Assembly: GCA_002690215.1 (NCBI GenBank)
Contig: NZDS01000060.1
Location: 18,903 to 59,589 of the forward strand
Reading direction: 5' to 3'
Origin: Rhodospirillaceae bacterium
GTDB lineage: Bacteria > Pseudomonadota > Alphaproteobacteria > UBA2966
DNA length: 40,687 nucleotides
Shown: in pieces, positions 24,319 to 28,248 of the stretch
Layout of the letters: every line of letters starts with the position of its first letter
How positions within the stretch are numbered: position 1 is the stretch's first letter
Notes under the pieces: generated by a model
Databases searched by the model: none
Seen by the model: the letters and a program-made list of their open reading frames with translations, nothing else
What the model was told of the DNA's origin: nothing
Program-made: the position numbers and the translations under genes

Positions 24319-25146
24319 CTAACCGCCCTCGGGCTTTGGCATCGGCGGCACCAGGCGGGCTGGGTCGAGGCGCTCGGCGAACCAATTGACGCGCCAGTCG
24401 AGGTGGGGGCCGGTAGCTCGGCCGCTGGCCCCGACGCGACCCACGAGTTGGCCCTGTTCGACAATCTCTCCCAACTTCACCAAGACAGCGCTTAAGTGAG
24501 AGAGCACCGAGGTCAGGCCGTGGCCGTGATCGATGATGATGGTGCCGCCGGTGTAGTAGAGGTCGGCTTCAACCAGTGCGACGAGACCGGCCGCCGGGCT
24601 CAGCACGGGTTTGCCGCGCGGCCCGGCGATATCGACGCCGTAGTGGGGCCGGCGCGGCTCGCCGTTGAGGATGCGTTGGCTGCCGAATACCCCGGTAATG
24701 GGGCCGCGTAGCGGCCAGGCGAAACCGGCGGCGAAATGGGGCTCAGGCGTATCGCGCTGCCGGGCGGCCGCGATCCAGCCGTTTTCGCGGCGTATGCGCA
24801 CCAGCGCAGCGGCGTCGGGTGTCACCATGCGCGGTGCCAGGCCGTCGATGCGCTGGACGCGATAGCTGCGCTTGGCCACCGTCAAGGAGCGCTCCTGGTG
24901 GCTGCCGTCCGGCAGGCGCAGCGCCAGGCTATGATCGGGCTTGGCATCGCGGCCGAAGCCAAAGACGAAAAGGCCGTCAGCGGCCACCCTGAGCGCCCGG
25001 CCGTCGAGCCTGACCTCGGTCCCCGGCGGCACCTGGCCGCGTATCAGGCCGCCCTGGACGGCCTCGCCCGCGAGTCGCAGATCCTGAGCTGCCGCCGCGG
25101 TCGCCGCCAGCAACACTCCAAGAGCGACCGCCAGGGCACGTATCAG
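24319..25146 (-). CDS. M23 family metallopeptidase (LytM-like), probable CTG start
   Basis: The predicted 275-residue exported protein has a signal peptide (RALAVALGVLLAATAAAAQ), a beta-rich region and a C-terminal M23 domain. Zinc ligands H168 and D172 are in HYGVDIAGPRG, with H217 in LSHLS and H248 in TGPHLDWRV. The last His of the usual HxH motif is Asp (D250). Such enzymes cut peptidoglycan cross-bridges or act as amidase activators. The signal peptide starts right at CTG 25144-25146, which overlaps the DUF2093 stop as CTGA and has AGGAG seven bases upstream. The only ATG (25248) would add 34 odd residues inside DUF2093. Confidence 0.85.
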   Translation of the reverse strand: MIRALAVALGVLLAATAAAAQDLRLAGEAVQGGLIRGQVPPGTEVRLDGRALRVAADGLFVFGFGRDAKPDHSLALRLPDGSHQERSLTVAKRSYRVQRIDGLAPRMVTPDAAALVRIRRENGWIAAARQRDTPEPHFAAGFAWPLRGPITGVFGSQRILNGEPRRPHYGVDIAGPRGKPVLSPAAGLVALVEADLYYTGGTIIIDHGHGLTSVLSHLSAVLVKLGEIVEQGQLVGRVGASGRATGPHLDWRVNWFAERLDPARLVPPMPKPEGG

Positions 25147-25373
25147 GCCGGCTCTCCTGCAGCTTCGCGCTCGTGGTCGCGCCGCTCCTCGTAGCGCCCG
25201 GTGGCCGTCGCGGCATCGACATAGGCCTCCTGCAACTCGGCGTTCCAATAGCGCAAGTCCTCGAGCATTATTTGCCGGCCGGTCACCGCACAGACCACGA
25301 AGTGGCCCGGCTTGATCACCTGGTAGGCGCCGGAATCGTACCTCAGTTCCGCTTGTTGCATGGGTTTGTGCAC
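25143..25373 (-). CDS. DUF2093 small protein
   Basis: This protein of about 76 residues matches the alphaproteobacterial DUF2093 pattern: AELRYDSGAYQVIKPGHFVVCAVTGRQIMLEDLRYW, then QEAYVDAATA (both quoted in part across residues 8-56). The region looks like a small beta-fold domain. No activity is known to me. The start is probably GTG 25373, with AAGGGA at good distance; TTG 25394 and ATG 25361 are alternatives. It lies between xseA (24 bp upstream) and the M23 gene, and in related genomes it keeps company with lpxK/xseA genes. The stop overlaps the proposed M23 CTG start. Confidence 0.8.
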   Translation of the reverse strand: MHKPMQQAELRYDSGAYQVIKPGHFVVCAVTGRQIMLEDLRYWNAELQEAYVDAATATGRYEERRDHEREAAGEPA

Positions 25374-25397
25374 GGCCAAAGTCCCTTGTTCCAACCC

Positions 25398-26822
25398 CTA
25401 CAATAGCTCGCCCTGGCCGTCGGCGGGACTGGATTTTTTCCCCCGGGCCGGTCGCGCCGGCCGGGCGCCGGCGCCGGCGACGGCGGCTTGGCGGCCGTCG
25501 TGGAACTCGAGCTCCAACGCCTGGCCCGAGCGCAGCGCGGCAGCCGAGGTGAGTAGGCCGTCGTCGCCGTGGACCAGGGCGAAGCCCCGCGCCAGCACGC
25601 TCTGGTGGCTGAGGCTGGCAAGCAGGCGCTCAGCCGCTTCCAGGCGGCCCTGGCGCTGGTCCAGCCCGCGCTGCCAGGCCAATGCCAGGCGATGTTCCAG
25701 GCCCTCGATGCCGCGCCCTTCCTCGGCCAAGCGCCGGCCCAGCACCGCCGGCCGCAACCCGGCCGCGGCCTGGGCCAACTTGTGGCCGCGATCGCCAAGA
25801 CCCTGGCGCCAGGCGCGGGCCAAACGCTCGGCCTGTTCGTCGAGGCGCTGTACCGCCAATTCGATGAGCTCGCGCGGCCCTCGCAGGCCCCGGGCCAGGC
25901 CCTTGAGCCGCATTTCGCGCTCGTCGAGGTTACGTTTCAGCGCCCCGAACAAGCGGCGATCCAGGTCCTTCAGCGTGTAGTCCAGGTCGGCCCGCACCGG
26001 TACCGCCATCTCGGCCGCCGCCGTCGGCGTCGGTGCCCGCCGGTCGGCGGCAAAGTCGATAAGCGTGGTGTCGGTCTCGTGGCCCACGGCGGAAATCAGC
26101 GGGATCGAGCAGGCCGCCGCGGCGCGCACCACGATTTCCTCGTTGAAGGCCCACAGGTCCTCGACGCTGCCGCCGCCGCGGGCGACGATAAGCAGGTCGG
26201 GCCGGGGCACGTTGCCGCCCGCTGTCAGACCGTCGAAGCCGGCGATGGCGGCGGCAATCTGCTCGGCCGCGCCGTCTCCTTGGACCAGCACCGGCCAGAG
26301 CAGCACGTGGCGGGGAAAGCGCTCGCGCAGGCGATGCAGGATGTCACGGATGACCGCCCCGCCGGGCGACGAGACGACGCCGATCACCCGCGGCAGAAAC
26401 GGCAGGGTTCGCTTGCGCTCGTCGTCGAAAAGGCCCTCGGCGGCCAGCTTGCGGCGGCGTTCCTCCAAGAGCTTCAACAGTGCTCCCTCGCCCGCCAGCT
26501 CGATGCTGTCGATGACCAGCTGATAGCGCGAGCGCGCCGGATAGGTGGTCAGCTTGCCGCTGACGATGACCTCGAGGCCGTCTTCCGGGGCGATCGCCAG
26601 GCGACCGGCGCTGCCGCGCCAGCAGACCGCATCGAGCACGGCGCTATCGTCCTTGAGGCTCATGTAGAGGTGGCCCGAAGCGGCACGCTTGAAGCCCGAG
26701 ATTTCGCCGCGCACCCGCACTCTCTCGAAGGCCCGCTCGACCGAGCGCTTGAGCGCCGCCGAGATTTCGCCGACCGAATACTCGGGGACGTTGGGGGGAG
26801 CATTGGGGGGTGTTTCACTCAT
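25398..26822 (-). CDS. xseA: Exodeoxyribonuclease VII large subunit
   Basis: XseA is the large subunit of exonuclease VII, which degrades single-stranded DNA from both ends. The 474-residue protein begins with an OB-fold domain ([38 protein letters not shown]). It continues with the catalytic core ([63 protein letters not shown]) and a long coiled-coil C-terminal part. ATG 26822 starts the family sequence; the frame further upstream is non-family. The small subunit gene xseB is not in the window. Confidence 0.96.
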
Positions 26823-26958
26823 TGCCGTCGCACTCTTGCCTCGCCGGGACGCTATGATACAAAAGGTGACGCTGGGCTGGAAGGTCGCAGCACCAGCAAG
26901 TGGGACACAACCCGCAGCGGCAAATAGACAAAGTGGGCCAGGGAGGCCAAACGGACTA
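26823..26958. other. Divergent gap between xseA and purD
   Basis: This 136-bp gap must hold the promoters of both genes. A TATGAT/TATCAT cluster at 26853-26860 could serve as -10 for either strand, but no convincing -35 pairs with it. For the xseA direction, TTCCAG lies about 17 bp upstream, a weak match. Nothing else stands out. Confidence 0.3.
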
Positions 26959-28248
26959 ATGTCAGCGCCCATCAACGTTCTCGTCGTCGGCTCCGGCGGC
27001 CGCGAGCACGCTCTGGTCTGGATCTTGGCGCGATCGCCGGGTGTCGAACGGCTATTTTGCGCGCCGGGCAATGGCGGCATTGCCGATCAGGCCCGCTGCG
27101 TCGATGTCGATGCCATGGACTTCGACGGCTTGATCGGACTGTGTCGCGCCGAGAGCATCGAGTTTGTTGTGGTCGGCCCTGAAGCGCCGCTGGTCGGTGG
27201 TCTGGTCGAGCGCCTCGAGGCAGCCGGCATCACGGCTTTTGGGCCCAGTGCCGCAGCCGCCGCACTGGAGGGCTCCAAGGGCTTCACCAAGGATCTTTGC
27301 GCTCGCCACGGCATCCCCTCAGCCGCCTACCTGCGCTGTGCCGACCTGGAAAGCGCCAGCGCCTACATCCGCAGGCAAGGTGCCCCCATCGTGGTCAAGG
27401 CCGACGGCCTGGCGGCCGGCAAGGGCGTGATTATCGCCCAAAGCATCGACGAGGCGCTGGCGGCAGCGGCCGAGATCCTCGACGGCCGCTTCGGCGCGGC
27501 CGGCAACGAGCTCATCATCGAAGAATTCCTCGAGGGCGAGGAAGCCAGCTTCTTCGCCCTGGTCGATGGCCAGACGGTGCTGCCGCTGGCTTCGGCTCAG
27601 GACCACAAGGCGGTGGGTGAAGGCGATACCGGCGCCAACACCGGCGGTATGGGCGCCTACTCGCCGGCCCCGGTGGTGACGCCCGAAATGCAACACCGCA
27701 TCCTCGAAGACATCATCAAGCCCACGGTCGCGGCCATGGCTGCCGAAGGCCGACCCTATCGTGGCCTGCTCTACGCCGGCCTGATGATTGCCGGCGGCAA
27801 GCCCAAGCTTTTGGAATACAACGTTCGCTTCGGCGATCCCGAGTGCCAGGTGCTGATGCCCAGGCTCGAGGGTGATCTGCTGCCGGCTCTGCTGGCGGCG
27901 GCCGAGGGCCGGCTGGCCGAGGTTCAATTGCACTGGTCGCCCGAGACGGCGCTGACCGTGGTGATGGCGGCCAGAGGCTATCCCGGTGACTACCAGAAGG
28001 GCAGCGTCATCGAAAACCTCAACGCCGCCGGCGAGCTCGACGGCGTCACCATCTTCCACGCCGGCACGTTGCGCGAGAACGGCAACATCAGGGCGAATGG
28101 CGGTCGCGTACTGGGCGTCACGGCGCTGGGCGCCAGCGTGCGCGAGGCCCAGGCCAAGGCCTACGAGGCCGCCGATGTCATCGACTGGCCGGAAGGCTTT
28201 TGCCGCCGCGACATCGGCTGGCGAGCCATCGCGCGCAATAAGGACTAG
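26959..28248 (+). CDS. purD: Phosphoribosylamine-glycine ligase
   Basis: PurD joins phosphoribosylamine and glycine with ATP in the second step of purine synthesis. The 429-residue ATP-grasp protein starts [17 protein letters not shown]. Other family parts are [67 protein letters not shown] and [22 protein letters not shown] 26959 gives the proper N-terminus; the longer open frame to 26689 overlaps xseA. PurD consumes glycine, whose breakdown is encoded by the gcv operon earlier in the window. An APH-fold gene follows after 11 bp. Confidence 0.97.

Follow-up and report, generated by a model that had tools for sequence, protein, structure and literature searches.

The M23 peptidase gene of the window (the whole stretch of DNA analyzed, 40,687 nt) likely begins at a CTG codon, CTG 25146, where a Shine-Dalgarno (SD) sequence would assist CUG initiation that is probably coupled to termination of the upstream gene, with the CUG read as Met and the output of the secreted M23 protein thereby limited. 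A few other lineages of Alphaproteobacteria have the CTG in this gene as well, and it is thus probably real rather than a sequencing error. Initiation at CUG is already known; what is new is a CUG that is conserved and recurrent in one gene family as the start codon within a CTGA overlap.

Gene callers limited to ATG, GTG, and TTG will place the starts of such genes wrongly or cut them short, with loss of their signal peptides. Retention of CTG between species, despite the rarity of the change that produces it, also provides a natural test of how far SD strength and stop-start coupling can make up for a weak start codon, and of whether selection favors weak starts as a means of keeping a cell-wall enzyme at a low level.

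Gene order and start-site geometry

The features considered are as follows.

25398..27080, minus strand: xseA, exonuclease VII large subunit (PF02601; start assigned mechanically)
25143..25394, minus strand: DUF2093 open reading frame (PF09866, E = 3.9e-22; TTG 25394 is the mechanical start)
24319..25146, minus strand: M23 peptidase gene read from the CTG (275 codons plus stop; PF01551, E = 2.6e-26)
25144..25146, minus strand: CTG, proposed M23 start codon (4-nt overlap with the upstream stop, CTGA)
25143..25145, minus strand: TGA stop of DUF2093, whose TG is common to the M23 CTG
25154..25158, minus strand: AGGAG, SD-like (7-nt spacer to the CTG; from the sequence)
25087..25146, minus strand: signal-peptide-like N-terminus, (M)IRALAVALGVLLAATAAAA (20 codons; from the translation)
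25246..25248, minus strand: TTG inside DUF2093, rejected alternative start
25114..25116, minus strand: GTG at codon 11, rejected alternative start (missing in L007)

The genes are read on the minus strand in the order xseA, DUF2093, M23 peptidase, and the first base of the M23 CTG is the wobble base of the last sense codon of DUF2093. A preliminary description of this DNA had proposed the CTG start, and the geometry that it gave is borne out: CTG 25146-25144 overlaps the DUF2093 stop as CTGA, and AGGAG lies seven bases 5' of it, at 25158-25154. Its statement that no ATG, GTG, or TTG fits also agrees with the sequence, in which the only canonical codons near the predicted signal peptide are a TTG 34 codons before the CTG and a GTG and a TTG at codons 11 and 12, the latter two within the hydrophobic stretch. 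Two details need correction. The codon at 25248-25246, given as ATG, is TTG and is formed by the DUF2093 codons TAT TGG (Tyr-Trp). The signal peptide stretch, placed right after the CTG, is present, but an Ile (ATA) that had been omitted and then Arg follow the CTG, the frame continuing as I-R-ALAVALGVLLAATAAAAQ.

Read from the CTG, the N-terminus is L/M-I-R-A-L-A-V-A-L-G-V-L-L-A-A-T-A-A-A-A-Q, in which we read a basic start, a hydrophobic run, and an AxA end as a predicted signal peptide; the M23 N-termini of relatives are comparably hydrophobic. For DUF2093, inspection suggests that GTG 25373 or ATG 25361 is probably a likelier start than the mechanical TTG 25394.

Comparison with a congener

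The only other species of genus g1 compared, G001 (M23 row L007), encodes an M23 protein 85% identical to that of the window. CTG, the CTGA overlap, and an SD sequence (GGAGG, also with a 7-nt spacer) are retained there, that is, in 2/2 g1 species examined, and the CTG is therefore not a private recent substitution. The congener has no ATG, GTG, or TTG between 29 codons before and 33 codons after the CTG, its sole canonical codon nearby being a TTG 30 codons upstream.

Initiation at GTG 25116 (codon 11), raised in the preliminary description as a possible refutation, would use a canonical codon that a caller limited to ATG, GTG, and TTG might pick. The congener, however, has CTG at codon 11, and GTG 25116 therefore lacks conservation as a start. 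Codons 1 to 10 of the two genes show four synonymous and no non-synonymous differences, which, together with the lack of this GTG in the congener, places the beginning of coding before 25116. A start at codon 11 would also cost the protein its basic N-terminal portion and half of its hydrophobic stretch, and we regard it as highly improbable. Over codons 101 to 270, window and congener share 100 identical codons, with 52 synonymous and 18 non-synonymous differences; taken together, the codon comparisons fit an M23 frame under purifying selection from about the second codon on. These counts, and the presence of metal motifs, also bear on the view that the CTG reflects a sequencing or assembly error or a decaying gene. 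The 6.98% contamination of the window's assembly would favor such a view, but the same CTG stands in another g1 genome, and the congener appears largely to refute an error or decay, which we find scarcely credible.

The TTG at 25248, inside DUF2093, is a legal start with an open frame that would add 34 Arg-rich residues before the signal peptide, and the congener has a TTG there too. In the 16-codon block that follows it, conservation of the M23 frame matches or exceeds that of the DUF2093 frame (two versus four non-synonymous codons), and this block taken alone would be compatible with a longer M23 protein. Against this, the TTG belongs to the conserved TAT-TGG of DUF2093, the other CTG lineages have no such upstream start within reach, and a long basic leader ahead of a signal peptide is unusual. 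The preliminary description had also raised conserved sequence before the CTG as a possible objection, and here the outcome favored the CTG only in part: leader length differs between the species (34 versus 30 codons, with a 12-nt gap upstream of the CTG in their alignment), but the 16-codon block is similar in both frames. Initiation at this TTG seems to us very unlikely, and the CTG is retained as the probable start.

CTGA overlaps among M23 homologs

Among 107 distinct M23 homologs, an NTGA overlap with the upstream stop contained GTG in 24, ATG in 16, CTG in 10, and TTG in 7; the other 50 lacked such an overlap. The final set of 197 homologs, from which 37 rows with an unaligned N-terminus, 42 duplicates, and 3 rows at contig edges were dropped (the printout for L022, an indexing artefact at a contig edge, was excluded), held 125 overlaps: GTG 55, ATG 32, CTG 22, and TTG 16. 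The position of the CTG is thus occupied by GTG, ATG, or TTG starts in relatives. The ATGA that had been anticipated in relatives is present in L009, from a related genus within the same family, and in 32/125 of the NTGA overlaps, as expected if the CTG is one base from the usual start.

When the 22 CTGA overlaps were sorted by hand, ten were directly followed by ATG and one (L260) had an ATG two codons on, so that these can start canonically. The 11 that were left are from the window (L001), G001 (L007), G011 (L018), G053 and its genus (L021 and L133 to L137), L024, and L068. L018 has TTG/ATG 8 to 9 codons further in, and L136 and L137 also have a canonical codon further in. No canonical start was present 14 to 40 codons before the mature region in 8 of the 11, which occupy four tree positions: g1, g46, L024, and L068 (the L024 and L068 lineages are represented by one genome each, that of L068 being a metagenome-assembled genome [MAG]). 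The M23 gene directly follows xseA in the three CTGA lineages other than that of the window and, by junction reading, in many relatives.

The strongest parallel to the CTG start of the window is found in g46. All six M23 copies found in this genus have CTGA with GGGAG at 7 nt, and four of them lack a usable ATG, GTG, or TTG. The junction in each of the six copies is CAGGGAGAYCTRTTCTGA, read as the xseA end QGDLF followed by the CTG start; a seventh g46 genome (G101, 78% complete) gave no such M23 match. A programmed frameshift or fusion of DUF2093 or XseA with M23 was considered and rejected, as inspection revealed no slippery run (GAG CCG GCC TGA; CTG TTC TGA) and the signal-peptide-like stretch would end up internal.

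On a tree of 113 mature M23 sequences with the signal region excluded (a quick tree, with SH-aLRT support only), CTG rows fell in four separate places, and five changes were needed for CTG versus all other rows. CTG is not retained across the rest of the family; g2 uses ATG, and g3 seemingly uses ATA. We added 84 homologs, the top matches in 385 class genomes sampled, consisting of the homologs that best matched the L024 and L068 proteins and 60 rows chosen by hand among the higher-ranking ones, with lower-ranking listed rows and unlisted matches left out. No further CTG case was found among these 84, which indicates that the CTG start is a rare and clustered trait.

A likely ATA start in the sister genus g3

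In g3, L010 (identical in sequence to L056, a MAG chromosome record) is free of ATG, GTG, and TTG between the upstream stop and a point 40 codons beyond the aligned start, and the only canonical codon in L013 is a TTG 39 codons upstream. Both have an ATA that overlaps the TAG of DUF2093 as ATAG, with an SD-like AGAGG or GGGAGG, by reading, 7 nt before the ATA. ATA is likely the start codon in these two species; a third g3 species, L012, has ATA and then GTG.

This raises the possibility that the start in g1 is the codon after the CTG, ATA in the window and ATT in the congener, as a near-cognate AUH of the kind known from infC. Such a start would unite g1 with g3, and the ATA of g1 and that of g3 both lie 19 codons before the mature region. 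However, the SD spacing in g1 is 10 nt to ATA/ATT versus 7 nt to CTG, and Ile is an ordinary second codon, ATH following 25/103 canonical NTGA starts (for example, GTG-ATC-CGT). Furthermore, L024, L068, and g46 carry the CTG with no ATH codon directly after it. We therefore consider initiation at ATA/ATT in g1 unlikely and favor CTG.

Control gene families

Eight neighbor families (xseA, lpxK, purD, msbA, kdtA, DUF374, DUF2093, and htrB; names not resting on Pfam are our own labels) were examined with the same procedure. N-termini without a canonical start numbered 9/112 for M23 versus 1/219 for the neighbor families (Fisher p = 3e-4). Two of the nine, L125 and L066, may simply have longer N-termini, as each has a canonical start further upstream; the window's own M23 is not counted with the nine, since its GTG at codon 11 falls in the search range. 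The sole control miss, lpxK of L129, has a Met just after the anchor and looks like an anchoring artefact. With a stricter search range, 11/113 M23 genes (L125 included) had no canonical start, and with the class-wide additions 11/197. The sequences compared are related rather than independent, and some rows were fetched as neighbors of CTG rows. Counted by lineage, the values were 5/192 for M23 versus 0/219 for the controls (p = 0.02), with related rows collapsed to five lineages, L125 counted as canonical, and the lpxK miss of L129 set to zero. The contrast by lineage is modest.

CTGA overlaps in the control families (220 N-termini) had a canonical start within 20 codons in 14/14 cases and within 6 codons in 12/14. 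The other two, purD of L108 and lpxK of L068, are 11 and 20 codons, respectively, from the nearest canonical start; these are possibly further CTG starts, or genes that simply start later.

A home-made gene caller run on 338 kb of G000, including the window, and on 400 kb of G053 yielded 575 closed genes. For 11 of these, no canonical start lay 25 codons or less from the coding boundary; by eye, they resemble shadow or edge ORFs. Each of the 26 CTGA overlaps listed was accompanied by a canonical start no more than 25 codons away, and a hand count put CTGATG at 13 of the 26; the survey missed the window's own M23 overlap, and its power is therefore limited.

Shine-Dalgarno sequences, coupling, and the proposed mechanism

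The N of an NTGA overlap is the third base of the last codon of the upstream gene. When xseA ends with Phe (TTY TGA), N can only be T or C, which, as long as the protein is unchanged, restricts the start to TTG or CTG; when the upstream gene ends with a Leu or Ala codon, N is free. The sampled genomes have a GC content of about 65%, which is expected to favor C or G at N.

A five-base SD core (GGGAG, AGGAG, or GGAGG, 4 to 10 nt from the start) precedes 9/11 CTG starts, six of the nine being from one genus, versus 4/32 ATGA, 7/55 GTGA, and 5/16 TTGA starts (hand tally). Such a core also precedes 5/10 CTGATG junctions, which start at ATG (hand tally), so strong SD sequences are not specific to CTG starts. 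The core may thus come with the xseA end rather than compensate for the weak codon.

From the geometry and the SD sequence, both seen directly in the DNA, we infer the coupling, the output, and the benefit. Drift at the wobble base could turn A, G, or T into C. Ribosomes ending translation of DUF2093 (of xseA in relatives) would re-initiate at CTG 25146, which the initiator tRNA would read as Met, and the SD sequence together with coupling would make the weak codon tolerable. The outcome would be a low, coupled output of a secreted peptidoglycan-hydrolase-like protein. As a more speculative extension, the xseA/DUF2093-linked M23 gene might be a hot spot of non-canonical initiation in Alphaproteobacteria, with at least four lineages using CUG and a fifth AUA, where a weak, stop-coupled start with a strong SD sequence, its first base being the upstream wobble base, is kept as a built-in limiter for a cell-wall enzyme.

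A relaxed initiator tRNA was considered as the cause of the CTG starts, but pattern searches revealed no link. They found an initiator-like tRNA-Met with A29-U41 (our own parse) in G001 and G098, but the A29-U41 stem is also present in G002 and G015, in which M23 begins with ATG and GTG. A tRNA-Met of this type was not found by pattern search in the other CTG genomes searched, G000, G053, G067, G099, G100, and G011. In the tRNA-Met rows L206 to L209 (parse of AGGCTCATAACCT), the A-U is at the outermost of the three anticodon-stem G-C pairs; these come from G001, G098, and G002, and that of G015 is similar.

Relation to known non-canonical starts

CUG starts are rare in bacteria, ancestral AUG starts having been replaced by CUG in 2 of 61,358 cases (Belinky et al. 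2017, PMC5622118), and structures have been determined for CUG complexes containing the M1 variant of initiator tRNA (Mattingly et al. 2024, PMC11497404). The M23 CTG resembles these known bacterial CUG starts in being a weak start that the initiator tRNA would read (PMC5622118, PMC11497404), but differs from them in being retained across species in two genera and in recurring in one gene. Overlapping ATGA/TGATG gene pairs are widespread, and coupling has been shown for 14 pairs (Huber et al. 2019, PMC6728339). Like those pairs, the M23 gene has a 4-nt overlap, an SD sequence inside the upstream gene, and the same strand as that gene; unlike them, its overlap begins with C and its start is CTG, and the terms CTG and GTGA are absent from the main text of Huber et al. 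(PMC6728339). Fixed non-canonical starts are known in Listeria, ATT for infC and ATC for rnhC (PMC13068326). These, too, are conserved starts other than ATG, GTG, or TTG in chromosomal genes, but they are ATH starts, whereas the window gene encodes a secreted M23 peptidase at a stop overlap.

It has been mentioned in passing that an overlapping CUG start can arise from a C-terminal codon that precedes UGA (PMC7246954). In Caulobacter, a CUG toeprint upstream of dnaA was non-functional in vivo (PMC8443254), and N-terminal peptides of the alphaproteobacterium Ruegeria pomeroyi are described, in the portion of the report considered here, under ATG, GTG, and TTG starts only (PMC3305630). Among the papers listed in literature searches, none named this gene pair or a CTGA start in its title or at the beginning of its abstract, and a search for DUF2093 listed one paper, on a Pseudomonas EF-hand protein.

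The M23 protein

The M23 protein matches PF01551 with 92.1 bits versus a cut-off of 28.7, and the closest solved chain by sequence is 2hsi_A, matched over positions 21 to 264 of a 268-position profile. HxxxD and HxH are the metal motifs of the M23 family. The window protein has HYGVD, and its HxH position reads HLD; M23 enzymes usually carry the second His of HxH where Asp stands here. This His is present in 2hsi_A (GPHMHW), whereas the window protein has Asp there (GPHLDW). Among 113 homologs, the second metal motif is HLDW in 94, HVDW in 6, HLHW in 12, and NLHW in 1. The catalytic state of these proteins, judged from their motifs, is uncertain.

A second M23 copy (L002/L037, G000:C1:2692-3618), 52% identical to the first, has a GTGA overlap after an xseA-like end. 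The contig that carries it, 7.8 kb long, comes from the same assembly (6.98% contamination), and this copy may belong to another organism.
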